Under the pieces are notes generated by a model, which was given only the letters and a program-made list of their open reading frames with translations, did not search any database and was not told the origin of the DNA. 64,000 bases of DNA from the NCBI RefSeq assembly GCF_014200495.1, contig NZ_JACHBY010000005.1, forward strand, positions 186,001 to 250,000, written 5' to 3'. Positions within the stretch are counted from its first letter, which is position 1; each line of letters begins with the position of its first letter. The DNA comes from Mucilaginibacter geliditolerans (GTDB taxonomy: Bacteria; Bacteroidota; Bacteroidia; Sphingobacteriales; Sphingobacteriaceae). Made by a program: the position numbers and the translations under genes. Of this stretch, positions 373-15,745 are shown piece by piece.

Positions 373-2004
373 ATGTTAAGGCACATCATCCACCGGCAAA
401 AAATTATACTTAATCTCTCAAATAGGGAGTATGCAGGTGCTTTGCAGGCAAGTGTAAGCAACCTGATGCAGCATGATTTAAAGGTTGGTATTGATGCCGT
501 TTTTAATAATGCTTTTCCCGAAGATAAAATTATACGCATTGATAAGTTGCAGCTTAACCTTGGCACCATAAACCAGCAGAACTTTGAGAACGAGTTTAAA
601 GCGCAATTGCTGAGCGAACTGGCCAAAGGCTTATCGGAGCAAAAAGATAATTTAAGCTATGCCGATAGTGCCGAGGAGTTAAGTAAGGAGCAATCGTTGA
701 TAAATGCCCTCATTTATTTTTTAGAGAAAGGTTATTTACCCTGGTACCAGGCAGCAACAACTACTATGGATGATTGGGAAACGGAGATCCTGAACAATTT
801 CACAGCCCGCGAATACCAGCAGTTTTTTGATAGAATATTGCTAAAACACCATGCGAATGAGGCGATCATGCAGCGCCTGATTTTACAGTTCTCCGATAAG
901 TTTTTAGGGGCATTGTTATCCGGCGCGATGCCAGAATTCGGCGTTTCATGGGAGCTGATCTATAACGATCTGGCGCTGATTGTACATAGCTTCAGTAGGC
1001 AAACAACAACTGTAGTACGCCACAAAATATGGCAGTATATTTTACAGGCTTTGCCCGATAAAAAGGGGAATGAGCTTAGTTACTATATTTTAGAACAGAG
1101 CGCAGTTTACTTTGGCATTAATAGCACTGTTATCAGCAATAAAAAACAGGATGAAATATTGGAAGGTCTGAAAACCGATATTATATACGCTGATTTTAAA
1201 AAACTGATCGTTTGTTTAAAACAAGAGATTAAGAAAGATCGGGGTGAAAAAAATGGAAAACCCGGTAAAAACACCAAGGCTTTTAGTGAAGAGCAAGGTA
1301 TAACAGATGAGGATAAAATTGCTGCTGATGGAAACATCGCCCTGGTTGATGAAGATATCGCTTTAGGAAATGACGGTACTATCCCGGATAATGAAACCGC
1401 TGCAATAAATGACCCGGGTATTGAAAATGAGGAACAAGCATCTGCAAAAAAGGAGAAGCCAAAAACAACGAAACGTAAAAGGGATGCACAGGTAATCGCC
1501 GGGGATGTAATATTTGTAAATAGCAGCGGGATAGTAATATTACACCCATTTTTAAAACCATATTTTGAGGGCCTGGAACTTTTTGCTGAAAAGAAATTTG
1601 TAAGCGACGAAGCCCGTCAGCGCGCAGTATTGCTGCTGCATTACCTGGCTACGGGCGAAACAAAGGTTGCCGAATTTAACCTCACGCTTCAAAAGGTAAT
1701 GTGCGGTTATCCGCTGGACGATACGCTGCCGGATGAGTTGTTGTTAACAGAAAAAGAGATCACCGAATCGGATAATTTATTATCCGCTGTAACTAATTAT
1801 TGGGTACCTTTAAATAACACATCTATACAAGGCTTACGCAACTCTTTTTTGCAGCGTGAAGGTAAGCTGGAACTAAGGGAGAACGGTTGGCTGCTCACCA
1901 TTGAGCAAAAGACACTGGATATATTACTGGGCAAACTGCCCTGGGGAATTTCAACCATCCGCCTGCCATGGATGGAACAGTTATTAAACGTGGATTGGTA
2001 TTAA
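373..2004 (+). CDS. Contractile injection system tape measure protein
   Basis: The N-terminus reads MLRHIIHRQKIILNL followed at residues 55-64 by RIDKLQLNLG, which matches my recollection of the N-terminal signature of the eCIS tape measure family (CIS_TMP, Afp14-like). Residues about 284-370 are a charged Lys/Glu/Asn/Asp-rich linker with low complexity. A second conserved block (GIVILHPFLKPYF onward, about 385-543) contains the Trp-rich end LPWGISTIRLPWMEQLLNVDWY-like motif of the family. In eCIS particles this protein sets inner-tube length and is loaded in the tube lumen. At 543 residues it is compact. It lies between an Ig-like gene (3 bp gap) and the first cargo gene (10 bp gap), fitting a single operon. 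Family recognition is from memory of the signature; role in this particle is inferred. Confidence 0.85.
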   Translation: MLRHIIHRQKIILNLSNREYAGALQASVSNLMQHDLKVGIDAVFNNAFPEDKIIRIDKLQLNLGTINQQNFENEFKAQLLSELAKGLSEQKDNLSYADSAEELSKEQSLINALIYFLEKGYLPWYQAATTTMDDWETEILNNFTAREYQQFFDRILLKHHANEAIMQRLILQFSDKFLGALLSGAMPEFGVSWELIYNDLALIVHSFSRQTTTVVRHKIWQYILQALPDKKGNELSYYILEQSAVYFGINSTVISNKKQDEILEGLKTDIIYADFKKLIVCLKQEIKKDRGEKNGKPGKNTKAFSEEQGITDEDKIAADGNIALVDEDIALGNDGTIPDNETAAINDPGIENEEQASAKKEKPKTTKRKRDAQVIAGDVIFVNSSGIVILHPFLKPYFEGLELFAEKKFVSDEARQRAVLLLHYLATGETKVAEFNLTLQKVMCGYPLDDTLPDELLLTEKEITESDNLLSAVTNYWVPLNNTSIQGLRNSFLQREGKLELRENGWLLTIEQKTLDILLGKLPWGISTIRLPWMEQLLNVDWY

Positions 2005-2014
2005 CTTTATATCT

Positions 2015-3190
2015 ATGAAGGAAAGCAAGCAATCATCACAGCAGGAAAATAACCCTTTAAAAAGCAGTAGTCTGTTTTTTAAGGATCATACTGTACAGGC
2101 CAAGCTTACCATAAACCAGCCTAATGATGCACACGAGCAGCAGGCCGACCATATGGCCGACCAGGTAATGCGCATGCCCGATCCATCAGTAAAACAACCG
2201 GGCTTTTTTAAACCAGCCATTAATCCGCTCCAGCGCAAATGCCATGAGTGCGAGGAGGATGATAAAAAGCTGCATCGTAAGGAAAGTTCAACCGGCGAAG
2301 TACATGCCGATAGTCAGCTTAATAGTTATGTGAGCTCATTAGGCTCAACTGGGCAGTCGATGTCATCAACTGCGCGCCAGTTTTTTGAGCCGCGGTTCGG
2401 CTATAATTTTTCAAGCGTTAAGCTCCATACCGATTCGGTAGCGGCAAAATCGGCACAATCCATCAACGCGCTGGCTTATACCAGCGGTAACAATATAGTT
2501 TTTAATACCAACCAGTATTCGCCCGAAAGTGATAGCGGAAAAAAACTCATAGCGCATGAACTTACGCATGTTGTACAGCAGGGGCTAACTAACCAAAGTA
2601 TCCAACGGCAATTGGACCCATTAGATGGTGGGCTTCCTCCAGGCGGCTTACCTCAACAACCCCAGGCACAGCCCACTGATGGCGGGCAGCAAGGTGCGGT
2701 AAAAGAGGGCTCCTCTTCGAGTAGCTCAAGCGGTTCAAGCGGCGGCGGCGGTGGTGGCGGCCCGGTAGCTTCAGGAGATTGCCGTGTGGATGTAAGGGCT
2801 ACTAAAATTCCGGCTTTGCATGGTATACCAATTTACCATCTTTTTGTTATACTGCATAATAAAGGAACAGGCGAGGAAAGTTATTACCGTGGCGGGCCAG
2901 CTGGCAGCGGACCTTTTGGCAATATTGTTACCATGCATGGCAGATACCTGCCCGGTACTATTGACTGGGAGCCATCAGCACCTTCGGTTACTGCACAAGA
3001 TCCGGTGGATTGTACAACAACCGATGCCTGCTTGGTTAGAGAATTAGCGCGTATTGATGGTACAGCCACTCCATATGCACCTACCGGCCCTAATAGTAAT
3101 ACTGTGGCACGGACAATATTACATAATTGCGGTATTCCGGAAGTTAAACCAGTTTGGGTAGCACCAGGCTGGGGCGATCCCGTTCTATAA
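2015..3190 (+). CDS. eCIS cargo: leader + DUF4157 core + GPNSN-motif C-terminal domain
   Basis: Residues about 20-60 form the leader shared by the cargo set (AKLTINQPNDAHEQQADHMAD, ending VMRMPD). QRKCHECE at 73-80 is a CxxC knuckle. The DUF4157 core (about 103-190) contains FFEPRFG, VKLHTD and the zincin-like HELTH at 181-185. A Pro/Gln then Ser/Gly linker (about 200-250) leads to a separate domain (255-391) with H275 in YHLFVIL, GRYLPGTIDW, GPNSNTVARTIL (358-369) and a final APGWGDP. That domain recalls C-terminal domains I associate with DUF4157 and Rhs-type proteins. Its function is unassigned; a permuted papain-like fold is only a guess, and no obvious nucleophilic Cys sits at the NSN position. 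DUF4157 is widely associated with eCIS toxins, so this is probably payload. A small gene follows 12 bp downstream. Confidence 0.82.
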   Translation: MKESKQSSQQENNPLKSSSLFFKDHTVQAKLTINQPNDAHEQQADHMADQVMRMPDPSVKQPGFFKPAINPLQRKCHECEEDDKKLHRKESSTGEVHADSQLNSYVSSLGSTGQSMSSTARQFFEPRFGYNFSSVKLHTDSVAAKSAQSINALAYTSGNNIVFNTNQYSPESDSGKKLIAHELTHVVQQGLTNQSIQRQLDPLDGGLPPGGLPQQPQAQPTDGGQQGAVKEGSSSSSSSGSSGGGGGGGPVASGDCRVDVRATKIPALHGIPIYHLFVILHNKGTGEESYYRGGPAGSGPFGNIVTMHGRYLPGTIDWEPSAPSVTAQDPVDCTTTDACLVRELARIDGTATPYAPTGPNSNTVARTILHNCGIPEVKPVWVAPGWGDPVL

Positions 3191-3202
3191 AAAAGAAGAA
3201 AT

Positions 3203-3463
3203 ATGAAATTTAAATCAAGGGAAGAACTGCAACAGTATTTGGTAACGCAGTTCCCGGTAAATACAACAGATCATGATACAATAACCAATTGGTTAAAGGA
3301 TAATGGATTTGAATATTCCGCGCTTACTGATAATGTAGTATACGCATCAGTTATCAGCGAAAGGAAGTTTTTAACTATCACCAAATTGCTGGTCAGGTTT
3401 GTTTTTACACCCGATAAATTATTGAAGGAAATAGCTGTTGAACAGGGAATAATAGCACCATAA
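3203..3463 (+). CDS. Small hypothetical protein between eCIS cargo genes (possible immunity/adaptor)
   Basis: This 86-residue protein has no signal peptide, no membrane segment and no recognised domain. It looks like a compact alpha/beta protein, with LQQYLVTQFP and ITNWLKDNGFEYSAL helices followed by VVYASVISERKFLTITKLLVRFVF strands. It starts 12 bp after the first cargo gene and 47 bp before the next, on the same strand. Small unknown genes directly after toxin genes are often immunity proteins or loading adaptors, so that is the natural hypothesis, but nothing in the sequence itself proves it. No comparable small gene follows the other three cargo genes. Confidence 0.7.
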   Translation: MKFKSREELQQYLVTQFPVNTTDHDTITNWLKDNGFEYSALTDNVVYASVISERKFLTITKLLVRFVFTPDKLLKEIAVEQGIIAP

Positions 3464-3510
3464 TGGATGCGATAAATATTTGATGCTAACGAATTGTAAA
3501 TGGATAGGAT

Positions 3511-4464
3511 ATGGGATCAATAACATGCAAAACCAATCGTTGTGAATCGGCACGGTCAGCTACCGGCCGGCCGGCATTTTTTCAGGCTAAACTTGCCATA
3601 AACCAGGAGAATGATGTTTATGAACAGGAAGCCGATAGCATGGCTGATAATGTTGTACGGACGGGGGATAATTCCATCAATCAAAAAAGCTTTTTCAAGC
3701 CATCGGCCATACAACGTAAATGCAATGCCGGGAACGAAGGCGCGGGCAGCAATGCCGTGGATAGTTATGTTGGCTCGTTAAACTCATCGGGCCAGGCAAT
3801 GCCCGAGGGCAGCCGTAAATTCTTCGAACCCAAATTCGGGCGCGATTTCTCGGATGTTAAATTGCATACAGGTTCAACAGCGGCAAAATCGGCACAAGCC
3901 ATAAACGCGCTGGCCTATACCAGCGGCAATAATATTGTTTTTAATACCGGGCAGTATTCACCTGACAGCGAAAAAGGGAAAAGATTATTAGCACATGAGT
4001 TAACCCACGTGGTGCAGCAAAGCAGCAGCACTACCACTCCCGGCGTACAAAGAATGCTGGCCTGCCCTACCCATTTAAATGACAATGACCCGGTACCGCC
4101 GGGTTTTAAACCTTATTTCGGTAGTACGAGTGTCTTTCATTGCGGTTTTAGAACAATTCTTGAGGACAGGGCGCCTACGCCAGACGACCCGATGAATGAA
4201 TGTGTTTATGATCATTCAGGAGTATTGGTTACCGATAGCCATCCAAATGCCGGCTGCCAGGGAACCCCTGATCAGTATGACTCCAAGGCAGATCCGATAA
4301 AACATACTGTCCTTGATTCGGGGGGTATTGTGCGAGCCGGAGGCCCTGCATTATTATCATCAGTGGGCCATGCTGCAGGCGAGGCTGTAGATGCTGTAAC
4401 ACAGCCAATAAGGGACGTTGGCAGTTGGCTGGAGCGTGGGGTTAGGGGTATTTACGGGATGTAA
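3511..4464 (+). CDS. eCIS cargo: leader + DUF4157 core + uncharacterised Cys-containing C-terminal domain
   Basis: The leader occupies residues 23-50 (FFQAKLAINQENDVYEQEAD) and is followed by QRKC at 68-71, where the second Cys of the CxxC seen in its siblings is missing. The DUF4157 core (about 85-170) has FFEPKFG, VKLHTG and HELTH at 162-166. The C-terminal domain (about 184-280) begins CPTHLNDNDPVPPGFKPY and contains FHCGFRTILEDRAPTPDDP, CVYDHSG and AGCQGTPDQYD, with conserved-looking Cys, His and Asp residues. I recall this domain from other DUF4157 proteins but know no function for it. The last 35 residues are an amphipathic tail (VGHAAGEAVDAVTQPI). It is shorter than its siblings and has a divergent leader (VVRTGD instead of VMRMPD). 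Confidence 0.8.
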   Translation: MGSITCKTNRCESARSATGRPAFFQAKLAINQENDVYEQEADSMADNVVRTGDNSINQKSFFKPSAIQRKCNAGNEGAGSNAVDSYVGSLNSSGQAMPEGSRKFFEPKFGRDFSDVKLHTGSTAAKSAQAINALAYTSGNNIVFNTGQYSPDSEKGKRLLAHELTHVVQQSSSTTTPGVQRMLACPTHLNDNDPVPPGFKPYFGSTSVFHCGFRTILEDRAPTPDDPMNECVYDHSGVLVTDSHPNAGCQGTPDQYDSKADPIKHTVLDSGGIVRAGGPALLSSVGHAAGEAVDAVTQPIRDVGSWLERGVRGIYGM

Positions 4465-4498
4465 TAAATCACCATATATAAAAAAGAAACATAAAAAA

Positions 4499-5893
4499 AT
4501 GCTGGCCACACAACAACAGTCAACCGTAACTGAAGTGAAAAATAGTTCGCCTCAAAAAGGTCACTTTTTTCAACCGAAACTCAGCATCAACCAACCCAAT
4601 GATGTGTACGAGCAGGAAGCTGATCATATGGCCGACCGCGTTATGCGCATGCCTGATCCGTTTGCAAGCCAGGATAGTTTTTTTAAACCCGCCAATCACA
4701 CCATACAGCGTAAATGTGCTCATTGCGAGCAGGAAGATAAAATGCTGCACCGCAAAGAGAGCTCTACAAGTGAAGTTGCGGGCAGCAGCCAGTTAGATAG
4801 TTATGTAAGTTCGTTAAGCACAGCAGGGCAATCTCTTTCCGCAAACAGCAGGCAGTTTTTTGAGCCTCGCTTTGGGCATGATTTTTCCAATGTGCGTATC
4901 CATACTGATCAAGTAGCCGCAAAATCGGCGGAGTCGATAAACGCGCTGGCTTATACTACGGGAAATAATATAGTTTTTAATAGCGGGCAATACTCGCCTG
5001 ACAGCCCCACAGGGCAACGGTTAATGGCGCATGAGCTAACGCACGTAATACAGCAGGGTGGAAGCGCTGCATCAAAAATTCAAAAAGTAGATAAGACACC
5101 TGCCGCTCCATGTAACCTGGTATCGGTCGTGCCTTCGAATGACCGGTATAAATTTGTAGTAGATACCGATAATTTTGAAGAGGGGCAGCAGAAGGCGTTA
5201 ACAGACAAATTAGCAATAACCAGCACCGCTTCACCCATTGATGTGTTAGGCATGGCAAGTGCAGAAGGGCCGGAAGCAAATAATGTTACATTATCATGCA
5301 AAAGGGCTAGTAAAGTAGCAACAATAGTGAGGGGATCGGGGCATACAGTTGGCCTGGAAAATGCCACCGGTGGATATCCGGGCTCGGAGCATGATAAAAA
5401 TTACAGGGCTGTTGCCCTAAATATTCAGGCAGCGCCGCCGCCTTGTGTTCCACCACGCGCTCCGGCACCCGGGTCATGGCATGGTACAGTAAGAATTCCC
5501 GAATTAACGGATCCGCATATTCACAGTACATCAACGTGCAGGGGGGCATGCGGGCCTGATTGCCCCCCTACCTGCACCCATGCACCCGATGTGGTACTGT
5601 GCCTGCCCGATGCAACCCGAAGTTGTCATTACACCTTTACTTATCACGATGTTCAGGAGTGTGGCTCGCACCTGGGTTGCAGGATACATGATGATTGTTA
5701 CGATGCCTGTGCATGTGTTGGAGATTGCTATACTGATCCATGTCATCGCAATTGCGACCTTCAATGTTTTGCTGTATATGGCACTACGCAATGTAACGAA
5801 TGGAGGAAGGGAAATGGACCTTTTGACAGCCATATACAATACTCTATGCCTCCAGAAATTTCAGCAGCAATTCCAGGGCCATGCCCTCCTTAA
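4499..5893 (+). CDS. eCIS cargo: leader + DUF4157 core + OmpA-like + phospholipase A2-like domain
   Basis: The ATG at 4499 is preferred over an upstream in-frame ATG at 4418 that lies inside the previous gene, because it gives the same leader spacing as the siblings (464 residues). The leader is at 22-55, QRKCAHCE at 70-77, and the DUF4157 core at about 98-187 with HELTH at 178-182. Residues about 205-312 resemble an OmpA-like fold (GMASAEGPEANNVTLS, then CKRASKVATIVRGSG). Residues about 317-464 are very Cys-rich and contain GCRIHDDCYDAC, with His397-Asp398 matching the CCxxHDxCY catalytic signature of secreted phospholipase A2 except that the first Cys is Gly. A membrane-lipid-cleaving toxin is a reasonable inference. 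An OmpA-like module could hold the protein near peptidoglycan or a particle component. Confidence 0.83.
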   Translation: MLATQQQSTVTEVKNSSPQKGHFFQPKLSINQPNDVYEQEADHMADRVMRMPDPFASQDSFFKPANHTIQRKCAHCEQEDKMLHRKESSTSEVAGSSQLDSYVSSLSTAGQSLSANSRQFFEPRFGHDFSNVRIHTDQVAAKSAESINALAYTTGNNIVFNSGQYSPDSPTGQRLMAHELTHVIQQGGSAASKIQKVDKTPAAPCNLVSVVPSNDRYKFVVDTDNFEEGQQKALTDKLAITSTASPIDVLGMASAEGPEANNVTLSCKRASKVATIVRGSGHTVGLENATGGYPGSEHDKNYRAVALNIQAAPPPCVPPRAPAPGSWHGTVRIPELTDPHIHSTSTCRGACGPDCPPTCTHAPDVVLCLPDATRSCHYTFTYHDVQECGSHLGCRIHDDCYDACACVGDCYTDPCHRNCDLQCFAVYGTTQCNEWRKGNGPFDSHIQYSMPPEISAAIPGPCPP

Positions 5894-5937
5894 CCAAATC
5901 GAAGAAAGATGAGTGTATTTTACGGGCTATTATAAAT

Positions 5938-6765
5938 ATGAGTGCAGGAAAATATGATCTTAAACAGTACAAAAGTTCGGCAAGGTTGCCGGATATGAGA
6001 TCTGTATTTTTTCAACCCAGGCTAACGGTTAACCAGCCTAATGATGTGTATGAGCAGGAGGCTGAGCATATGGCAGATAAAGTTATGCGTATGCCATCAT
6101 CGCCCATAAATACAGGTGGGTTTTTTAAGCCCGCCAATAATATTATACAGCGTATGCCTGCAACTATTCAGCGAAAAATGGAGATGACCGGTAATGATGC
6201 AGCACATTGCATGCAAAAAGCGGAAGAAACCCTCAAAAAGCTGGAAACAAATATGCAGGGTAATAGCTACGGTAAACAGGATTATATAACAGGTGCCGTA
6301 AAAATGCTCCGGAGCAAATGGGATGCGAAAAAAATTAAATGCTATCATTTTGATGGGATGGTACATGGTGAAGACGACTACTCAGGAGATGAGATATGGC
6401 TGGATGGTGATAACGATAATTTTTTGGATGAAGGAACGCTGCTGCATGAAGGTGTACATGCATACCAGGCATCACAGCATAAGGATATTGCAGCTAAATA
6501 CGCTGATGCATTAAACACGCAAAGACCGCTTGATCCTGCCAAACCTGCCGACCTGAAATTATTGAAATGGAAGGCATGGACGGAATATTGGGCCTACCGT
6601 GCTAAATACGATTATTTTAACCCTACCCTTAAGCAAGCCGCGAAGGAGGAAGATATAGACAAATGGACGATGGATACACCCGATGTGCATAAATCCACAG
6701 CAAGGGTATGGTTGGGTGATCAGTCGTTTATTCCAAAAGCATACGACCCTAAAATTGATAAATAA
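5938..6765 (+). CDS. eCIS leader fused to a distinct HEXXH zincin domain (no DUF4157 core)
   Basis: The start at 5938 gives a leader spacing equal to the siblings; an in-frame ATG at 5881 would overlap the preceding gene by 13 bp and add 19 residues. Residues 24-70 carry the same leader (FFQPRLTVNQPNDVYEQEAE, VMRMPSS, GFFKPANN, IIQR), but the FFEPRFG/VKLHT/HELTH core is absent. Instead residues about 85-275 hold a different domain with LLHEGVHAYQ (HEXXH at 170-174) and Glu216 in WTEYWAYRAKYD as a possible third zinc ligand. The protein is therefore likely an exported or loaded metallopeptidase-fold effector. It sits 6 bp before the eCIS ATPase gene. The domain family was not recognised by name, and catalytic activity is inferred only from the zinc motif. 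Confidence 0.78.
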   Translation: MSAGKYDLKQYKSSARLPDMRSVFFQPRLTVNQPNDVYEQEAEHMADKVMRMPSSPINTGGFFKPANNIIQRMPATIQRKMEMTGNDAAHCMQKAEETLKKLETNMQGNSYGKQDYITGAVKMLRSKWDAKKIKCYHFDGMVHGEDDYSGDEIWLDGDNDNFLDEGTLLHEGVHAYQASQHKDIAAKYADALNTQRPLDPAKPADLKLLKWKAWTEYWAYRAKYDYFNPTLKQAAKEEDIDKWTMDTPDVHKSTARVWLGDQSFIPKAYDPKIDK

Positions 6766-6771
6766 TTACCC

Positions 6772-8073
6772 ATGCTGCAAGCGATCGAGACACATATTCA
6801 CCAGTTTTCAGGCTATCTTAAAGCCATCATCCGAAAGGATGTTAGCGCTGAGTGGGATCTGACGGCATTGATAGCAGCGATTACCGAAGAATTTAAAAAG
6901 TACAGTATTCAGCTGGAGCCACCTGAAGGGCTGATCTTCCTGATGGTTTATATTCCGCATATATATCCTAATTTTTATGATGAAGTAATGAAGGAAGCTA
7001 TGCCACAGGGGGGCGATTTTCCCGAGTTTGGGGGTGTTAGGGGGAGCAGTCACCGGGGATTATTGCCTACCGGCGAAACTGCCCAGTTTATACTTGCCGG
7101 CGATGATATAGCCAAACGACTGTTTGTTCAGCAATTACTTACCGTTGGCACACTGGTGCGGTATGGAATATTATACCTTGAAACTGTAAAAGAGGGCGAA
7201 CCGATCATGAGCGGACGAATAATTGCCGAACAGGAATGGATAAGCCGCCTGGTAATTGGTGTTGAGATACCCCCGCGTTTTGGCCCGGAGTTTCCGGCTA
7301 AACGGATAGTAACAGAGATGCAATGGGACGACCTGGTACTTAACCCCTATACCTTTAGCCAGATCAACGATATTAAAACCTGGCTGATGTATAATGCCAA
7401 ATTAATGCAGGATGAGGTATTAAAGAGAAAGGTGAAGCCCGGCTACAGGGTTTTGCTGCATGGCCCTCCCGGTACGGGTAAAACCCTAACAGCGTCATTG
7501 CTGGGCAAGCAGTTTAATAAGGAGGTATATCGTATAGACCTGTCGCAGATCGTATCGAAATTTATAGGGGAAACGGAAAAAAACCTGGAGAAGGTTTTCT
7601 CAAAGGCGGAGAATAAAGGCTGGATCTTATTTTTTGATGAAGCGGATGCATTATTCGGCAAGCGGACACAAACCCAAAGCTCGAACGATAGATATGCTAA
7701 CCAGGAGGTTTCCTACCTGCTGCAAAGGATAGAGGATTTTCCGGGCTTGCTGATACTGGCATCAAACTTTAAAAGTAATATGGATGAGGCTTTTTTAAGA
7801 CGCTTTCATACGGTAGTGCATTTTCCTGCGCCTAATCCTGCGGAGCGTTTATTGCTGTGGCAAAAATCGTGGCCGGCATCTTACAAAATGGAGCCTGCAC
7901 TCAGTCTGAAAATTATAGCTGATAAATATGAGTTGAATGGTGCCGCTATAATTAATATTATGCATTATGCCTGCCTTAAGGCGATAGCCAGGGACGACGA
8001 ATACATTCGCCATGATGATATTTATGAGGCCATAAAAACCGAATACCGCAAAGAGGAGCGAAGCATGAAGTAA
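6772..8073 (+). CDS. eCIS-associated AAA+ ATPase (Afp15-like)
   Basis: The C-terminal half is a canonical AAA+ module: Walker A GPPGTGKT at 231-238, Walker B ILFFDEADALFG at 285-296, sensor-1 LILASN at 327-332 and an arginine finger in RRF at 343-345. The N-terminal 200 residues (EPPEGLIFLMVYIPHIYPNFYD, GLLPTGETAQFILAG) match the N-terminal domain typical of ATPases in eCIS loci. Afp15-type ATPases are conserved in eCIS clusters and are thought to act in particle assembly or cargo loading in the cytoplasm. There is no signal peptide. The gene follows the cargo block by 6 bp and is the last gene of the eCIS operon in this window; the next gene is an unrelated SDR. Confidence 0.9.
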   Translation: MLQAIETHIHQFSGYLKAIIRKDVSAEWDLTALIAAITEEFKKYSIQLEPPEGLIFLMVYIPHIYPNFYDEVMKEAMPQGGDFPEFGGVRGSSHRGLLPTGETAQFILAGDDIAKRLFVQQLLTVGTLVRYGILYLETVKEGEPIMSGRIIAEQEWISRLVIGVEIPPRFGPEFPAKRIVTEMQWDDLVLNPYTFSQINDIKTWLMYNAKLMQDEVLKRKVKPGYRVLLHGPPGTGKTLTASLLGKQFNKEVYRIDLSQIVSKFIGETEKNLEKVFSKAENKGWILFFDEADALFGKRTQTQSSNDRYANQEVSYLLQRIEDFPGLLILASNFKSNMDEAFLRRFHTVVHFPAPNPAERLLLWQKSWPASYKMEPALSLKIIADKYELNGAAIINIMHYACLKAIARDDEYIRHDDIYEAIKTEYRKEERSMK

Positions 8074-8177
8074 CGGTAATTGCCCTTTGTGACAATGCAA
8101 TTACAGTATTAGTGCCACTTGTACAAAACGTATCATTAATACCCACTTTTGTATAAATCCACCTTGAAAATTGACCA

Positions 8178-8185
8178 TAATTTTG
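8178..8185 (+). promoter_or_regulatory. Candidate -7 box (TAATTTTG) for the SDR gene
   Basis: TAATTTTG fits the Bacteroidota -7 consensus TAnnTTTG and lies 22 bp before the SDR start codon. No well-spaced -33 TTG was found, so this is a suggestion only. Confidence 0.35.
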
Positions 8186-8207
8186 ACCCAACAAAAAAAT
8201 TAAAACA

Positions 8208-9026
8208 ATGGCAAAAACAATTTTTATAACAGGTGCATCCAAAGGTTTTGGAAAGATCTGGGCAGAAGCATTTTTAAAGCGTGGCGATAAGGTTATAGCA
8301 ACCGCAAGAAACCTTGAAACACTTAACGACCTGGTAGCTAAATATGGCGATGCTATATTACCTATCAAATTAGATGTGAACGACAGGGCGGCAGGTTTTG
8401 CAGCCGTTAAACAGGCAAAGGAGAAATTTGGCGGTATTGATGTATTGATTAATAACGCAGGCTTCGGCTTATTTGGCGCTATTGAAGAAACTACCGAGCA
8501 GCAGGCACGTGAACAAATTGAAACCAATGTGTTTGGTTTATTGTGGTTAACACAGGCTGTATTGCCAATTATGCGTGAGCAGGGGTATGGCCACATTATA
8601 CAAGTATCAAGCGTGTTGGGTATAACCACCTTGCCGGTTTTGGGCTTGTACAACGCATCAAAATTCGCGGTTGAGGGTTTAAGCGAAACATTGGCTGCTG
8701 AAGTAAAAGACTTTGGCATAAAGGTATCATTGATCGAACCTAATGGTTTTTCAACCGACTGGGCAGGTGCATCAGCATTCAATACTGAACCAATACCGGC
8801 TTATGATGGTGTAAGGGCAGCATTCCAGGCTGGGCTTACTGATGATGCTTTTGGCAAACCAGAAGCTACCGTTGATGCGGTTTTAAAACTGGTTGATAGC
8901 GAAAATCCTCCGTTAAGATTGTTCCTGGGTAAAGTTGCTTTCCCTTGGGTTAAACAAGTTTACGCAGGTAAACTGGCTGAATGGGAAGAATGGGCCGATG
9001 TGGCAACAGCCGCACACGGTCACTAA
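8208..9026 (+). CDS. Classical SDR family NAD(P)-dependent oxidoreductase
   Basis: The protein is 272 residues with the complete classical short-chain dehydrogenase signature: nucleotide-binding TGASKGFG at 8-15, the INNAG motif at 81-85, Ser135 in VSSVLG, and the YxxxK pair Tyr148/Lys152 in YNASK. It should reduce or oxidise a carbonyl or alcohol using NAD(P) in the cytoplasm, but the substrate cannot be read from the sequence. The AraC-type gene 60 bp downstream on the same strand is a plausible regulator, since SDR plus AraC pairs are common in this phylum. The hairpin terminator between the two suggests separate transcription units. Confidence 0.92.
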   Translation: MAKTIFITGASKGFGKIWAEAFLKRGDKVIATARNLETLNDLVAKYGDAILPIKLDVNDRAAGFAAVKQAKEKFGGIDVLINNAGFGLFGAIEETTEQQAREQIETNVFGLLWLTQAVLPIMREQGYGHIIQVSSVLGITTLPVLGLYNASKFAVEGLSETLAAEVKDFGIKVSLIEPNGFSTDWAGASAFNTEPIPAYDGVRAAFQAGLTDDAFGKPEATVDAVLKLVDSENPPLRLFLGKVAFPWVKQVYAGKLAEWEEWADVATAAHGH

Positions 9027-9045
9027 TTTAAATGGTATTTAACTG

Positions 9046-9079
9046 ACAAAATCTGCGCTGAATTAAGCGCAGATTTTGT
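9046..9079 (+). terminator. Hairpin terminator after the SDR gene
   Basis: A perfect 14-bp stem (ACAAAATCTGCGCT and its complement) surrounds a 6-nt loop; the right arm itself ends in TTTTGT. It separates the SDR and AraC genes. Confidence 0.8.
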
Positions 9080-9088
9080 GTTATTTGT

Positions 9089-9991
9089 ATGATTATGAAG
9101 CACTTTAAAGGTCTGGCCGAAATGCACCGTTTCAATGGTTTTCCGCCGCCGGAAAACCCGTTGATCAGCCTGTATCATTGTAATAATGCTAATACCTGCT
9201 CGCTTGGCGATCGGGAGTTTAGTTCTGATTTTTATATGATCGGTTTTAAAAAGATCAAATCGGGCGTGGTAATGTATGGCCGTACTAAATACGATCATGA
9301 GAATGGCTCTATGATATTTACCAAACCACGGCAGATCATCCAATTTAAAAACCTGGAGTTTGAGGAAGATGGCTTTTTGATCTTTATCCATGAGGATTTT
9401 CTGAATGGGCACCCGCTACATGCTGAGATCCAGAAATATGGTTACTTTGATTATGAGGCCAACGAAGCTCTTCACCTGTCGCCACGCGAAGAAGAACTGA
9501 TGTGGGACCTGTACCATAAGATCGACGCGGAGTACAACAATAACCAGGATGAATATAGCCGCGATATCATGCTTACCCATATTGATTCGCTATTAAAATA
9601 TGCGCAGCGTTTTTACAAGCGCCAGTTCATTAACCGTACTGAATTATCGGGCAAAACGGTTTCAAAGTTCAATCATGCGCTGGCTGTATATTTCGAAAGT
9701 AATTCAATTGCCAACAAAGGGCTGCCGACAGTAAATTATATTGCAGATCAGCTAAATCTGTCACCACGTTATTTAAGTGATCTTTTAAAACAGGAAACCG
9801 GCAAAACGGCAATGGAGCTTATTCATATCTATCTAATGTCCGAAGCTAAAAACCTGCTTAAAACGGCTGATCAAAGTGTTTCAGAAATAGCCTATACATT
9901 AGGGTTTGAGAATCTGCCTTATTTTTCAAGATTGTTTAAAAAGGAAGTTGGTATCAGCCCAAACCAGTTTAAGAAACAGTTATTGAATTAA
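9089..9991 (+). CDS. AraC family transcriptional regulator
   Basis: The 300-residue protein has an N-terminal cupin-like sensing region (about 1-160, containing VMYGRTKYDHENGSMIF) and a C-terminal double helix-turn-helix (about 200-300). The diagnostic segments are LSPRYLSDLLKQETGKTA and SVSEIAYTLGFENLPYFSRLFKK. This layout is typical of AraC/XylS activators that sense a small ligand. It follows the SDR gene and may control it. It converges with the sensor kinase gene and overlaps its 3' end by 4 bp. An alternative ATG two codons downstream is possible. The ligand is unknown. Confidence 0.92.
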   Translation: MIMKHFKGLAEMHRFNGFPPPENPLISLYHCNNANTCSLGDREFSSDFYMIGFKKIKSGVVMYGRTKYDHENGSMIFTKPRQIIQFKNLEFEEDGFLIFIHEDFLNGHPLHAEIQKYGYFDYEANEALHLSPREEELMWDLYHKIDAEYNNNQDEYSRDIMLTHIDSLLKYAQRFYKRQFINRTELSGKTVSKFNHALAVYFESNSIANKGLPTVNYIADQLNLSPRYLSDLLKQETGKTAMELIHIYLMSEAKNLLKTADQSVSEIAYTLGFENLPYFSRLFKKEVGISPNQFKKQLLN

Positions 9992-11250
9992 TCCTGTTTA
10001 GTAAATAGTATGGTAAAAGAGTGATAAGGCGCAACGAACTGGTAATTTAACGAGCAACCAAAGTTCTCACATATCTGCCGCGATATAGTAAGGCCCAGCC
10101 CCGTACCCTCTGACCGGGATGATTTGTGGAAGCGTTTAAATATATCATCATTTGGCAACGCGGTACTTTCGCCTGTGTTGGCTATGATAAGGCTTTGTTC
10201 TGTCAGTTCAATATTTATCTCGCCGCCAATGTAGTTATGCCTTATGGCATTGCTTATCAGGTTGTTCATCAAAATATCAACCAGGTACCGACTGCCATGA
10301 ATATTTTTAGGCCCTAACGAGCAATTGAGTTTTAATTTTTTATCCTGGAATATTTCATCAAATAGCGCTATCATTTCCATAATAAGCGCGTGCAAATCGA
10401 TCAGTTCGTGGCCGTGGTCCAGTCTGTTCTCTATTTTAACCAATAGTAGTAAGGATTGGTTAAGGCGGTTTAAACGGTTAACAGAGGTATAAAGGTCATT
10501 AAGTATAGTGCTTTGCCGCTCACTAAAATTATCAGTCTGTATCAGCGTATCCAGCTTTGAATTTATTACGGCTATAGGCGTAAGCAATTCATGCGAGGCA
10601 TTTTCGGTAAAGCTTTTCAGGTCCTTATAATCATGCTTTACCCTCGATGCCATGCTGATAACAGCAGTATTTAGTTCCTTAAACTCATCAATGTGGGTAT
10701 CAACCTTTTGCAGTTCATTGGTGTCGGTAACATTGAACATTTTCAGGTCCTTTGTTATGGTGTAGAATGGCTGCCATAAGCGGGTTAATAATAAGCGGTT
10801 GATGATTAGCAAAATCACTAAAAGCAGCAGGATAACCCCTATAGTGATGGCGAAAATAATGCGTATCAGATCCTCGGTCTCAACTTTTGATTCTACAACC
10901 AGTATTTTGTAATACTTGTCTTTAACCATAACCGAGCTGATGAGCCCGCGGCCCGATTCATAACCTTTTTCATTAACGTTAAAATATTTAGTGTCGATGA
11001 ATTGCCGCGTTACGGAATTGACCGGAGCGGGAAAAAAGCTGATCTGCTGATCGTCCGACTTGAAAACCTGGGGCAAATGATGATTAAGATTTACATAATC
11101 AAATACCTCATTTTCCTCCACCACCAAATCCTTATCAATCTGGTTGGTTAATATCCAGCTGATGGTTTGGTAATAGATAATACCGGTGATCATCATCACA
11201 ATAATAGTGGTGATGAGGGTAACGCGATTATACCTGTCTAAAAGCCTCAT
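9988..11250 (-). CDS. Sensor histidine kinase of OmpR-type two-component system 1
   Basis: Two membrane segments (about 10-30 and 130-150) bound a periplasmic sensor region of roughly 95 residues. A short linker precedes the dimerisation/phosphoacceptor helix with SHELLTP (His220). The ATPase domain has the N box NNLISNAIRHN and a G box in GTGLGL. The kinase gene overlaps the upstream response regulator by the ATGA arrangement, so the pair is translationally coupled. It is a clear paralogue of the kinase at 36564-37862: both share RYNRVTL at the N-terminus, ESKVETEDLI/HSKVETEDLI before TM2, and the C-terminal TISRQICENF. The signal sensed is unknown; neighbouring secreted phosphoesterases and receptors suggest a nutrient cue. 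Confidence 0.93.
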   Translation of the reverse strand: MRLLDRYNRVTLITTIIVMMITGIIYYQTISWILTNQIDKDLVVEENEVFDYVNLNHHLPQVFKSDDQQISFFPAPVNSVTRQFIDTKYFNVNEKGYESGRGLISSVMVKDKYYKILVVESKVETEDLIRIIFAITIGVILLLLVILLIINRLLLTRLWQPFYTITKDLKMFNVTDTNELQKVDTHIDEFKELNTAVISMASRVKHDYKDLKSFTENASHELLTPIAVINSKLDTLIQTDNFSERQSTILNDLYTSVNRLNRLNQSLLLLVKIENRLDHGHELIDLHALIMEMIALFDEIFQDKKLKLNCSLGPKNIHGSRYLVDILMNNLISNAIRHNYIGGEINIELTEQSLIIANTGESTALPNDDIFKRFHKSSRSEGTGLGLTISRQICENFGCSLNYQFVAPYHSFTILFTKQD

Positions 11251-11924
11251 GATTCTGTAAACTTATAGCCCATGCCATAAGCAGCCTGTATATAATCCCT
11301 TGAACCCGCTTCAACCAATTTTTTCCGGATGTTTTTTATGTGCGAATAAATAAAATCAAAATTATCGGCCATATCCACGCCATCGCCCCATAAATGTTCG
11401 GCAATGGCATTTTTTGAAACCACCTTGCCTTTGTTAGCTATAAAATAAAGCAAAAGCGCATATTCCTTACGGGTAAACTTAATGCTTTGTTTGCCAACTT
11501 TTACCTCTTTGCCCAACAGATCTATAGTAATTTCATTAAAAGTGAGGATGTTGCTGCCGTTATAGGATTTGCGGCGGATAATGGCAGTTACCCTTGCCTT
11601 TAACTCCGACAGGTGAAAAGGTTTTACCAGGTAATCATCAGCGCCAAGGTCTAAACCCTCCAGGCGGTCGTCGAGTGAGTTTTTGGCTGAAATAATAAGT
11701 ATCCCATCGGTATAATTATGTTCTTTGATGATCTTGAGCAGGTCAATACCATTGCCGCCGGGTAAGGTTATATCCAGCAGAATGCAATCATAACGGTACA
11801 CGTTTACTTTTGTTAAAGCTGTTGCGTAATCGGCAGCGGTTTCGCAAATATTGCCGGCCTCGGTAAAGTATTCTTCAATACTTTCACGCAAACCTTGCTC
11901 ATCTTCAATGACTAATATCTTCAA
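11247..11924 (-). CDS. OmpR/PhoB-family response regulator of two-component system 1
   Basis: The receiver domain (1-120) has the acidic pair IEDEQ, phosphoacceptor Asp51 in LLDITLPGGNG and the conserved Lys in LVKPFH. The C-terminal winged helix (about 130-225) contains FTRKEYALLLYFIANKGKVVSKNAIAEHLWG-like sequence and ends in the usual AAYGMGYKF. It is co-transcribed with the kinase through a 4-bp overlap. The regulator at 35884-36564 is a near twin of almost the same length, implying a recent duplication. It is divergent from the TonB-dependent receptor at 12122 across a 197-bp intergenic region, which makes that receptor a likely target. Confidence 0.94.
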   Translation of the reverse strand: MKILVIEDEQGLRESIEEYFTEAGNICETAADYATALTKVNVYRYDCILLDITLPGGNGIDLLKIIKEHNYTDGILIISAKNSLDDRLEGLDLGADDYLVKPFHLSELKARVTAIIRRKSYNGSNILTFNEITIDLLGKEVKVGKQSIKFTRKEYALLLYFIANKGKVVSKNAIAEHLWGDGVDMADNFDFIYSHIKNIRKKLVEAGSRDYIQAAYGMGYKFTES

Positions 11925-12121
11925 AGCAGTTTTTTTACAAAGTTATTATTCAATACTGTAAATTTTCTGGAATAATAGCAACATGCAGAAAATTATCCCG
12001 GTGCAATTGTGTTATAATCTTTTGTTTGTAATTAAGTTGTTTCAATTGTGTTACACACAAAATTTATCCAAAGTTAAATAGCACATTTGGCGCAAAATCG
12101 ATTTTTCAAATTATTATTATA

Positions 12122-14575
12122 ATGCGCAACATTGCTCTCTCTTTTCTTTTTATTGTACTTTCTATAAACGTATGGGCTCAAAATAATACTGCTAAAGGTA
12201 AAATTAGCGGGAAGGTTGTTGATGCAAGTAATAATACACCTGTTGATTATGCTACTGTTAGCCTTTTTAAAGATGGCAGCGCTAATCCGTTTAATGGTAT
12301 GAGCACCGACCCCAAAGGAAACTTTACTTTAAACCACCTGGCCGATGGTACTTATAAGTTAACCATTGATTTTATCGGCTACCAGAAAAAGGTTATTGAT
12401 CATATTATTATCAGCGGCTCAAATACTATTGCATTGGGCGAGGTAAAACTGGCCCCGGTACAAACCCAGTTACAGGCTGTTGTGATTACTGCCAAGGCCC
12501 CAATAGTTGAAAACAAGATTGATAAGATGGTTTACAACGCTGCCAATGATGTAACCGCGCAGGGTGGCGTGGCGCTTGATGTGCTGAAGAAAGTTCCGCA
12601 GGTTAGTGTTGACATTGATGGTAACGTGGAGCTGCAGGGTAACTCAAACATCAGGTTTTTAATAAACGGAAAGCCGTCAAGCATTTTTGGGGCGAGTTTG
12701 GCTGATGCGCTGCAATCGATTCCAGCCAGCCAGATCAAAAGCATTGAGGTAATAACCAGCCCGGGTGCAAAATATGATGCATCAGGAACTGGCGGCATCA
12801 TTAATATTATTTTAAAGAACAACAATGTACAGGGTGTAAACGGCAGTGTAAACCTTTCAGCAGGTACACGTTTAGAGAACGGCTCTTTTAATTTAAATGC
12901 CAAGAAAGGTAACTTCGGCGTAAACGCCTATTTCAGCGGTAATGAGCAGCTTAATTCCACTACCAAAACCACTACCAGCCGTACCTCGGTTGATAGTGCA
13001 AAGGATGTAAGCCGCCTTATCCAAACTGGTAGCAGTGCGTTTAAAAGGAGTGGTTACCAATCGGGTATTAGTTTTGATTGGAGTATCAGCAAAAAAGATG
13101 AATTGACCGGCTCATTTGGCTTTAACCATTTTGGGAATCATGGTGAGGGCCCAACCAGCCAGTTGCAGGAAACTACCGATGCAAATAATACTACAACGTT
13201 GTATCTGCCCAGCCTGCGTAATTCAAGCAGCCGTTTCAGCGCCAACTCATCGGATGTTAGCCTGAGCTATAAAAAGACATTTGATAAAAAAGATGAAGAA
13301 CTGGATGTATTGTACACATCGAGCTTTGGAAATAATAGTAATAATTTTTCGCAGGTGCAGACTTATCCCTTAGGAGGCTATCCTGCATCGGGCCAGTCGG
13401 GCACAAACCCGGGAACGGACAAGGAAACCGATATATCGGTAGATTATACCAATCCGTTCAGCAAAAAGTTCACACTGGAAACCGGTGCTAAGGCAGTTAT
13501 AGAAGGCATCGGCAACAGCGTTGTTACTGATACCCTTTTAAATGACGGCGAGTATGTAAACAATCCCAACCAAACCTATAGCTTTAATTACCATCGCGAT
13601 ATATTTGCCTATTATTTATCAGGTACGTTTTCATTATTCAATGATTTTATAAACGGCCATGCGGGTGTACGTTATGAGTATACAACAACTACTGCCGATT
13701 TCCCGGGGACGAGCATCCCCGACTACGGGACTTTAGCGCCATCGTTTACCATACAGCATAAGCTTAATGAAACGGAGTCGATAAAATTTAGCTATAGCTA
13801 CCGTATTCAACGCCCTGATTATGGTGATTTGAACCCTTTCTATAATATCAGCGATCCGCACAATATCAGTACCGGTAACCCGGACCTGAAACCGGAGATT
13901 GGCCATAATTTTGAACTAGGCTATAACAAATCATTTAATCAGGGGACTAATGTTTATGTAGCTGCATTCTATAGGCATAATACCAATGATATCCAATCAT
14001 TCACCACTTATTATTCTACATTGGCTATTAATGGTACTGATTATTCCGATGTTTCACTTACCCAGCGATACAATATCGGATCCGAAACAAATGAAGGTGT
14101 TAACTTATATGTTTCGGTACCTGTTACAGGCAAATTCAGCCTGCGCTCAAACATGTTTGTTGCCGACAGGATATCAAACAACCCCGGCAGCCCGCAGGTA
14201 AGCGGTGTGATATACAGGGCGAACCTGAATGCTTCTTATGATTTTGGGCACAACTTTATTGCTGAAGTTTTTGGTAATTACCGTTCATCACAAAGAACCA
14301 TACAGGGCACTAATCCGGGCTTCGGGTTTTATAATCTGGCAGTACGTAAGCAATTCCTTAATAAAAACGCCAGCATTGGTTTAACAGCTGCCAATCCGTT
14401 TAACAAGTATGTGAGCCAAACAGCTACTACTACAGGTGCTAACTTTAGCCAGGTATCAACCCGCGAGATCCCTTTACAATCCTTTGGCATAAGCCTCAAT
14501 TACAAATTCGGCAAGCTTGAATTTAAAAAGGATAAAGAGAAAGACAACCAGGATGTACCGCCAGAGGCTAATTAA
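12122..14575 (+). CDS. TonB-dependent receptor-like outer membrane beta-barrel protein
   Basis: A signal peptide (1-20, ending VWAQ) is followed by a carboxypeptidase-regulatory-like beta-sandwich (about 25-115, KISGKVVDASNNTPVDYATVSL). Next come a plug domain (about 120-235, with LDVLKKVPQVSVDIDGNVEL and FLINGKPSS) and a long barrel of aromatic strands matching the OMP_b-brl family. The plug and barrel are like those of receptors regulated by a local signalling pair rather than SusC proteins; no SusD follows. It is divergent from the response regulator of system 1. The ligand is unknown. Its 3' end overlaps the convergent phosphoesterase gene by 8 bp with no terminator hairpin seen. Confidence 0.88.
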   Translation: MRNIALSFLFIVLSINVWAQNNTAKGKISGKVVDASNNTPVDYATVSLFKDGSANPFNGMSTDPKGNFTLNHLADGTYKLTIDFIGYQKKVIDHIIISGSNTIALGEVKLAPVQTQLQAVVITAKAPIVENKIDKMVYNAANDVTAQGGVALDVLKKVPQVSVDIDGNVELQGNSNIRFLINGKPSSIFGASLADALQSIPASQIKSIEVITSPGAKYDASGTGGIINIILKNNNVQGVNGSVNLSAGTRLENGSFNLNAKKGNFGVNAYFSGNEQLNSTTKTTTSRTSVDSAKDVSRLIQTGSSAFKRSGYQSGISFDWSISKKDELTGSFGFNHFGNHGEGPTSQLQETTDANNTTTLYLPSLRNSSSRFSANSSDVSLSYKKTFDKKDEELDVLYTSSFGNNSNNFSQVQTYPLGGYPASGQSGTNPGTDKETDISVDYTNPFSKKFTLETGAKAVIEGIGNSVVTDTLLNDGEYVNNPNQTYSFNYHRDIFAYYLSGTFSLFNDFINGHAGVRYEYTTTTADFPGTSIPDYGTLAPSFTIQHKLNETESIKFSYSYRIQRPDYGDLNPFYNISDPHNISTGNPDLKPEIGHNFELGYNKSFNQGTNVYVAAFYRHNTNDIQSFTTYYSTLAINGTDYSDVSLTQRYNIGSETNEGVNLYVSVPVTGKFSLRSNMFVADRISNNPGSPQVSGVIYRANLNASYDFGHNFIAEVFGNYRSSQRTIQGTNPGFGFYNLAVRKQFLNKNASIGLTAANPFNKYVSQTATTTGANFSQVSTREIPLQSFGISLNYKFGKLEFKKDKEKDNQDVPPEAN

Positions 14576-15734
14576 CCTTTAGCGATACAGTAGCACTTTT
14601 GCCAAAAACTATTTTCTGTGCCGGATTTGTTGGATTTGTATTCCACAAACACTCTCTTACGGTCAGGATTTGTTTTTTGGCATTCAGCGATATTAGCTGG
14701 AATGATTGCAATGTTTCGTCCTTGGCTGAGTAAGCGCCTTTCATGGGTGAATCAACCCTGAATGTATTCAGGCTTATGTCGTTATCCGGGCCTTTATAAG
14801 CATAAAACTGGTTCCAATTGCTGTTGCCATGGAAATATGCTTTAATGTTTGGATGGGCTTTCAGGAACTTCACAAAGCCGCGCTGTTCAATATCGGTAGC
14901 TCCATCATCCTTTGATGCTACATTGCCTTCTTTGTAATGCTCGGCAACCAGGTTCTGGAATTTATTTTCGGCCGTCATGTTATATGGAGGCAGCGGATTA
15001 GTGAAATGCTTGGATTCGCAGGTAGGCTGATCATGCGTAAAAATAACTACCGGCGTGTTGGCTGCAACGGTATCCAGGTCTTTCTTCATCCATATCCGCT
15101 CGGCTGAATCGGCCCATAGGGTGATGAACATAAAGTGTATGCCCTTTATATTGCGCGAGTAATTGATCTTATCAATAGTAAAATCATAAGCCTCATTGGT
15201 CATGGGTGTTTGTGGCTTAAGCATCAGGTTATAAATGCCAACCATTGATGTTGGGTCGGTTAATGGCTCCAAAGGTTTAGGAAAGCCGATGGCATTTGAG
15301 ATATCATGATTACCCGGTAATATCAATAATTGTGCAGGTTTGCCATTGTGCCCGGTTACATGCAGGCTGCCCATGTAATCCGTTTTAAATTGATCCCATG
15401 ACGTTGCCGCGTTTTGTATAGGCGCTTCCATACGGTTGGCAATATCGCCGCCTTCAATAACATAATCTATTCCACCTGTTACATTACCGGCATTAACCCC
15501 GCCATCAGCAGGGAGGGTGAGTGAGGGCAGCGTATTCATTTGCTTTACCATTGCAGCATTTACGGTATGACCGCTAACAGCAGTATCACCCCTGAATTTG
15601 GCACGGGTTATACCATAATGCGCATCCGAAGTAAAAATCATTTGCACAACCTGGGCATGCGCCAATTTAGGGCCGTTTAACAAAACAGCGGCAATAAAAA
15701 TGGCCTTAAAGAGCTTTTTGCAAGTATGTTTCAT
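14568..15734 (-). CDS. Secreted calcineurin-like metallophosphoesterase with altered last motif
   Basis: A signal peptide (about 1-28, ending AHAQ) precedes a metallophosphoesterase fold. Motifs visible in order are SDAHYG (D-x-H), EGGDIANR (GDxxxR), LPGNHDIS (GNHD) and FTHDQP (metal His). The final GHxH motif is replaced by FHGNSNWN, so one usual metal ligand is missing or differs. It should hydrolyse phosphomonoesters or phosphodiesters outside the cytoplasm. It is the second gene of a pair with the EEP-type protein upstream (11 bp gap), so the two probably act together on an organic phosphate source. The exact substrate is not inferable. Confidence 0.85.
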   Translation of the reverse strand: MKHTCKKLFKAIFIAAVLLNGPKLAHAQVVQMIFTSDAHYGITRAKFRGDTAVSGHTVNAAMVKQMNTLPSLTLPADGGVNAGNVTGGIDYVIEGGDIANRMEAPIQNAATSWDQFKTDYMGSLHVTGHNGKPAQLLILPGNHDISNAIGFPKPLEPLTDPTSMVGIYNLMLKPQTPMTNEAYDFTIDKINYSRNIKGIHFMFITLWADSAERIWMKKDLDTVAANTPVVIFTHDQPTCESKHFTNPLPPYNMTAENKFQNLVAEHYKEGNVASKDDGATDIEQRGFVKFLKAHPNIKAYFHGNSNWNQFYAYKGPDNDISLNTFRVDSPMKGAYSAKDETLQSFQLISLNAKKQILTVRECLWNTNPTNPAQKIVFGKSATVSLKVN

Positions 15735-15745
15735 TTTTAAATATG

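Follow-up and report, generated by a model that had tools for sequence, protein, structure and literature searches.

Four genes, C1 to C4, at positions 2,015 to 6,765 of a 64,000-nucleotide stretch of the Mucilaginibacter geliditolerans genome (positions 186,001 to 250,000 of contig NZ_JACHBY010000005.1; hereafter, the window) probably form a cargo operon of one extracellular contractile injection system (eCIS) particle, and their products share a leader that we read as two-part, with a probably relocated zinc-ligand helix. We propose, from sequence comparisons, that this single operon has been diversified by cassette exchange and that loading more likely relies on the FF-type blocks of the leader (FFQPKL ... 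FFKPA ... QRKC) as its recognition tag. The helix NDxYEQEADxMADKVM, between FF blocks, would be the third-zinc-ligand helix of eCIS_core (PF13699, also DUF4157), moved from behind the HExxH motif to the front by circular permutation of an M48-like fold. In an intact cargo, the leader helix would fold back onto the core and complete the zinc site, and after injection the differing C-terminal domains would act on the target.

The leader is tightly linked to eCIS. The first ~75 to 100 residues of C1 to C4 are alike, with 54 to 68% identity over 50 to 71 amino acids (aa) in pairwise BLASTP (E 2e-19 to 7e-35); aligned four ways, they are invariant at FFKP and at the first Glu of the EQEAD motif, among other columns. 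All four cargos (4/4) carry at least two FF dipeptides within their first 110 residues, versus 0/61 control open reading frames (ORFs); these controls begin with ATG, are 150 aa or longer and come from all six frames of window positions 8,101-64,000, L009 and L010. A 54-position leader profile, A2, was searched in 296 genomes of the phylum and gave 89 matches in 54 of them, and a CIS tape measure was found in 63. Both occurred together in 52 genomes, the leader alone in 2 (G199 and G217), the tape measure alone in 11 and neither in 231 (Fisher p 2e-44); a tape measure was thus present in 52/54 genomes with a leader match versus 11/242 without. Eighty-two of the 89 matches lie at most 8.0 kb from a tape-measure gene, and the contigs of the remaining 7 hold no tape measure. 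The possibility, raised with the original prediction of this array, that the leader is a general secretion signal found far from eCIS loci is rejected by this linkage. The next same-strand element within 1.5 kb was eCIS_core for 87/89 leader matches, the exceptions being C4 and G231:34635, so that the rule of a leader always followed by a core very nearly holds.

The helix motif occurs on either side of HExxH. The 296 genomes yielded 139 core matches, of which 98 were translated, namely 49/52 without and 49/87 with an upstream leader match; the leader-less ones left out (G092:C22, G272:C2 and G237:C17) are all weak. They were scored with a 17-position matrix built from both motif kinds, at a threshold of 3.0 (the 99th percentile of best scores in shuffled proteins was 2.8). 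Cores below 25 bits, among them BlaR1-like proteins and other zincins, were excluded, and multi-core ORFs were counted per core. In the 93 deduplicated cores, the motif was found upstream only in 51 (114 to 347 residues before HExxH), downstream only in 38 (+31 to +33), on both sides in 0 and on neither side in 4; given the sampling, the 51:38 ratio is no natural frequency, and the exclusion alone is meaningful. Of the four "neither" cases, G139:C170 is truncated by the end of its contig, and G296:C5 is apparently a false match. A looser text pattern applied to the 98 cores (51 upstream, 30 downstream, 5 both, 12 neither) was superseded by the matrix, its 5 "both" cases being Q.KAN..G strings at -62 that are unlike the motif. 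Two further sets, which were not deduplicated and which lean toward "upstream" because they were picked by likeness to the window cargo, came from the protein database (148 upstream, 8 downstream, 1 both, 21 neither) and from named genomes (100, 2, 1 and 13, respectively). Some of their "neither" cases start at contig ends or have a rear motif under the threshold, and in the second "both" case, L108, the rear match (+63) is unlike the motif. Over the three sources, deduplicated, the first residue of the EQEAD stretch is Glu in 290/290 upstream and 48/48 downstream copies, with a matrix that favours Glu.

Homologs of the C4 zincin also carry such a block on either side: one such as LTVGAPDDHSEQEADRIAEKV directly follows HExxH in P0031, P0032, P0038 and P0051, and more weakly in P0111, it lies ahead of HExxH in others, and P0034 has two copies, the rear one degenerate. 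In P0042, the motif lies within the front part of the core. A tree of 126 cores, based on 97 columns, with many unresolved forks and six rows with weak rear motifs labelled "downstream" by eye, requires at least six changes of motif side by parsimony, three of them forced by well-supported branches. Downstream-scored cores of L117 (7273-12507, a Chamaesiphon metagenome-assembled genome [MAG]) and L121 (5773-8061) sit among upstream-type cores in this tree and are possibly independent moves of the helix.

The leader motif NDxYEQEADxMA matches the third-zinc-ligand helix of M48 peptidases, which in BepA carries Glu201. The zinc ligands of BepA are H136, H140, E201 on helix H5, and H246, and the M48 active site also has an HPxxxxR plug (PMC7950410). 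The core profile in canonical order, A6, found BepA in the PDB (6ait and 6sar) with whole-sequence E values of 3.7e-4 to 5.3e-4, and with E 0.017 for the HExxH stretch alone. Its rear motif aligned on TQQN-E201-QEAD of BepA (TQQNEQEADRIG), the first Glu falling on residue 201 of chain 6sar_A, and the leader profile aligned with this rear motif in the same register over 18 columns (hhalign Prob 91, E 1.1e-6). The PVC-metallopeptidase domain of polymorphic toxins has the same HExxHxxQ-E signature, with the Glu on the third helix (Zhang et al. 2012, PMC3482391). Unlike in that description, the Glu helix of C1 to C3 precedes the HExxH domain; the string "permut" has 0 occurrences in the first 300,000 of the 357,715 characters of that paper. 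The combination of HExxH and a Glu-bearing third-ligand helix that characterizes M48-like gluzincins was found at the profile level only, and in permuted order in C1 to C3. We infer that the leader motif is part of the eCIS_core metallopeptidase, its helix having been placed ahead of HExxH by circular permutation.

The two parts of the leader fare differently in cargos without a core. Among FF-type cargos with C-terminal domains of the C1, C2 and C4 families, the helix motif was detected in 49/51 with a core versus 5/13 without (Fisher p 1.1e-5, a value that is too small because 8 of the 13 core-less cargos belong to the C4 family and are non-independent). P0002, P0003 and P0006 keep FF ... 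FFKPA with the intervening stretch gone, and P0010 has a disrupted version. As the FF blocks stay while the helix often goes with the core, they appear to be the better candidates for a loading tag. Sixteen of the 122 leader ORFs in named loci have no core; 6 of these appear truncated or split (L090, two in L100, L122, L124 and L125), and the helix is degenerate in L086 and lost in L073. The side exclusion of the helix and its loss with the core do not uphold a leader that is a tag wholly independent of eCIS_core. Nor do these data support, as it stands, a leader that is one shared address tag: its central motif stands before or after HExxH, on both sides in 0/93 cores, and is often, though not always, lost with the core. 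The proposed payload array is supported as a modular array of cargos belonging to one eCIS. Where core-less relatives have no FF blocks, they often begin with an LQRxxGN segment (17/33, from the C1 and C2 families, taxa mostly not given), e.g., the LALQRxxGNxA-like starts of P0129, P0149, P0164 and P0166, a segment that might take the place of FF blocks in other lineages.

Several observations weigh against our reading of the leader. Taken alone, the motif stretch of A6 scored 2 bits against BepA, which is not significant, and the leader profile A2 alone retrieved only chance helices from the PDB, and no peptidase. The contact between the leader Glu and HExxH, and with it the closure of the zinc site, is deduced from sequence alone, and 114 to 347 residues are a long distance to fold back. 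G107:C16 and G192 still count as cores without the motif, and the most evident exception to a strict requirement for the helix is cargo Y of a sister genome (see below), which has HELTH but the motif neither before nor after it. The toxicity of the AlgoCIS cargo Cgo1 is independent of its HExxH motifs (PMC8894135). The ExxAD helix is kept in core-less ORFs of L078, L080 (two), L081, cyanobacterial L116, L127, L128 and L130, and in P0056, P0078, P0083, P0103, P0118 and P0200 of the protein database. A helix that is always lost with the core is therefore rejected, and a second role of the helix, or a recent loss of the core, is likely in these cargos. Finally, many leader proteins have no FF blocks, which therefore are no universal eCIS tag.

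The ExxAD-helix leaders on core-less cargo, like the strong linkage of leader and eCIS, would be expected if the whole leader, YEQEAD helix included, were a single signal for loading, recognized by the AAA+ protein or the tube, its likeness to a zinc-ligand helix being incidental or secondary. Cargo of the Photorhabdus virulence cassette is indeed loaded by N-terminal signal peptides via Pvc15 (PMC11495950). We nevertheless consider this explanation unlikely, if a serious one. The motif follows HExxH in 38/93 cores, where the role of an N-terminal signal is impossible, its upstream and downstream copies are mutually exclusive in the 93 cores, and it went undetected in 8/13 core-less FF-type cargos, including P0002, P0003 and P0006, which keep two FF blocks. 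A separate helix that goes with the core on one side or the other without binding zinc (a chaperone or dimer element, for instance) would also account for the varying position of the motif and for the few cores that have none; it appears improbable given the invariant Glu, its in-register match to BepA E201 and the conserved Glu on the third helix of the domain described by Zhang et al. (PMC3482391). If the relocated helix does complete the zinc site, the split site might act as a safety catch, which we regard as quite doubtful: with its leader held by the loader or the tube and the FF blocks serving as the handle, the enzyme would be open and inactive, and only after ejection would it close and become able to act on cargo or target, so that activation would be tied to unloading.

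The profile search advised in the original prediction detected PF13699 in three of the cargos, C1, C2 and C3 (E 4e-29 to 5e-32), with no match in C4. Because C4 has no core, its helix would be vestigial, brought in when adjacent cargo genes recombined at the FFKPA block. The comparison with a sister genome, G588 (DNA ~90% identical), points to this origin: its array comprises C1, the 86-aa gene that follows C1 in the window, C2, C3, the extra cargos X and Y, and C4', which is short and has no motif. C4 bases 5881-6094 are 82.7% identical to sister gene X and bases 6121-6762 are 90.4% identical to sister C4', versus 67% in the cross-comparisons, and the switch point (6095-6121) lies at the place, base 6121 in C4, of the FFKP block that every window cargo has. 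On this comparison, C4 is a chimaera of an X-type front and a C4'-type rear joined at the FFKPA block. Its simplest explanation would be a deletion in the window lineage via recombination between adjacent leaders, since an X-like C-terminus is also found in L073 (last residues only); alternatively, there may have been an insertion in G588.

Arrays of leader cargos with other C-termini, which the original prediction had suggested looking for in relatives, are present in both L073 and G588. L073, from a Mucilaginibacter xinganensis MAG, is the nearest named locus and holds C1, the 86-aa gene, C2, three other cargos and then the ATPase gene. That the window array is larger than usual is true of the phylum sample, in which the 51 contigs with leader matches near a tape measure carry one match in 31 cases, two in 11, three in 7 and four in 2; it is not true of Mucilaginibacter, with 7 cargo genes in L080 (sp. 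OK268), 5 in L081 and 6 in G588. A shared N-terminus, unrelated C-termini and cassette exchange among relatives, as in polymorphic toxins, were all found. An immunity gene for each toxin was not: the sole small gene, at 3203-3463, adjoins C1, and the other cargo genes follow their neighbours at about 50 bases or less. This 86-aa gene, overlooked when the region was described as a four-gene array of what are indeed four real cargo ORFs, occurs in 2/300 genomes of the order, the two with a near-identical C1 C-terminus; two further genomes give only weak 31% matches that contain stops. It also adjoins the C1 relative in L073, and an immunity or helper role of its product is a guess.

The C-termini of C1 to C4 are, as predicted, unrelated to one another (best off-diagonal E 1.3 in pairwise BLASTP). 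That of C1 belongs to a family of 37 proteins, C1 included, with a conserved His, RxGGP and GPNSN, and that of C2 to a family of 80, C2 included, with conserved Cys, His and Asp; neither has a Pfam family or a PDB match, and both types are found behind eCIS_core and in core-less proteins. C3 had been called OmpA-PLA2-like, which is borne out only in part. Its OmpA-like matches fall below the cut-offs; its tail, which is like phospholipase A2 (PLA2) in its CxxHDxCY motif (CRIHDDCY) only, gave no PLA2 profile or PDB match, and the C3 C-terminus has no structural match in the PDB. C4, described as a second zincin, does have a zincin-like domain of its own behind the leader, with scattered weak matches to several zincin families in Pfam, and no eCIS_core. 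Its profile A4 matches BepA at E 0.008-0.013, which may stem from the eCIS_core part of A4. In 8 among the 120 listed of 145 homologs, this zincin occurs without a core (P0001, which is C4, P0002-4, P0006-8 and P0010); others among the matches listed have the same domain behind leader and core.

Profile searches place C1 to C4 within a genuine eCIS locus, between the tape-measure gene (PF19268) and the AAA+ ATPase gene (PF00004), as predicted. The window starts within this locus: beyond its 5' edge lie genes for Pvc16_N, the sheath, two gp19 tube proteins, CIS_tube, spike/hub and gp25. From tape measure to ATPase, all genes lie on the + strand, separated by no more than about 50 bases or overlapping slightly. 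The features are given in Table 1. The C3 ATG is base 4499, and the database copy of C4, P0001, starts at an inner ATG at base 5938.

Table 1. Genes and predicted leader features of the eCIS cargo region, in window coordinates
Feature	Position	Strand	Evidence or remark
CIS tape measure protein (CIS_TMP)	373..2004	+	PF19268 E 1.5e-126
Cargo C1: leader, eCIS_core, "GPNSN" C-terminal domain	2015..3190	+	PF13699 E 3.8e-29, residues 116-190
C1 ND-AHEQQADHMADQVMRM segment, predicted third-zinc-ligand helix (Glu41)	2123..2176	+	Profile A2 matches post-HExxH motif
C1 FFKPA block	2204..2218	+	FFKP invariant in four cargos
86-aa protein, candidate immunity or accessory	3203..3463	+	Travels with C1
Cargo C2: leader, eCIS_core, C-terminal domain with conserved Cys/His/Asp	3511..4464	+	PF13699 E 9.9e-32
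C2 predicted ligand helix (Glu38)	3610..3663	+	Profile A2
Cargo C3: leader, eCIS_core, weak OmpA-like part, Cys-rich tail (CRIHDDCY)	4499..5893	+	PF13699 E 4.9e-32
C3 predicted ligand helix (Glu39 counted from base 4496)	4598..4651	+	Profile A2
Cargo C4: leader without eCIS_core, then zincin-like domain (HEGVH ... WTEYWAYRAKYD)	5881..6765	+	No Pfam family
C4 ligand-helix segment, altered (EQEAE instead of EQEAD)	6040..6093	+	Four-way alignment
C4 homology switch point: 5' side like sister gene X, 3' side like sister C4'	6095..6121	+	At FFKPA block (6121)
AAA+ ATPase of eCIS locus, position of Pvc15-type loader	6772..8073	+	PF00004 E 3.5e-28

The same genome has a second eCIS tape measure on a different contig, with four eCIS_core proteins nearby (L011 6823-18702, i.e., G000:C2 at about 72.8-84.7 kb), three on the + and one on the - strand. 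They share an N-terminus very unlike the window leader and have the ligand helix after HExxH; therefore, each locus has its own cargo style. A fifth eCIS_core protein of 600 aa, of the downstream-helix type, is encoded on a third contig (L012 7721-9523, G000:C4), where the tape-measure search found none; other structural genes were not searched for there. The eCIS locus of L010 encodes, at 6382-16369, three very large proteins of 1188, 1020 and 1120 aa, whose genes separate gp25 from the tape measure; none of them has a Pfam match at E 0.001, and they are candidates for baseplate or tail-fibre proteins.

That DUF4157 cargos form arrays in which a single N-terminus is combined with many C-termini is established (PMC3482391; PMC8213781), and the array type seen here, confirmed as a modular cargo array, is not new (PMC3482391; PMC8894135). 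A closely similar plan is that of AlgoCIS of Algoriphagus machipongonensis, whose Cgo1 and Cgo2 are likewise DUF4157 cargos with a common, predicted-disordered N-terminus and differing C-termini; they are two rather than four, and both have been demonstrated in the tube lumen (PMC8894135). It is very improbable that C1 to C4 are accessory proteins merely encoded in the operon, even if their cargo status is read from genes and both C4 and the 86-aa protein have no eCIS_core, as DUF4157 is strongly associated with eCIS (PMC8213781) and Cgo1 and Cgo2, built to the same plan, are tube cargo (PMC8894135). The toxins of Danov et al. 2024 are also DUF4157 cargos encoded near eCIS core genes, with a predicted N-terminal loading signal in which no specific conserved sequence was detected, according to the text (PMC11297309), whereas the window lineage has conserved FF blocks and the helix motif. 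Evans and Waterfield grouped eCIS signal peptides by alignment (PMC11495950). BepA shares HExxH and a Glu-x-x-Ala-Asp helix as third ligand (PDB 6ait and 6sar) and differs in its canonical order, its added TPR domain and its being an Escherichia coli envelope protein rather than a cargo (PMC7950410). The literature text, figures not covered, gave nothing relevant on the letters of the leader motif or on a circular permutation of DUF4157. As far as that text shows, the two-sided, mutually exclusive ligand helix, the two-part leader and the natural chimaera joined at the FFKPA block are new.

DUF4157/eCIS_core serves as the marker domain of eCIS cargo, and these results bear on what it does. If our reading is true, the "disordered leader" of many such proteins would belong to the enzyme, and annotation by PF13699 only would miss part of the active site as well as core-less cargo such as C4. 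The separable FF blocks would provide a concrete candidate for the loading tag in this lineage.

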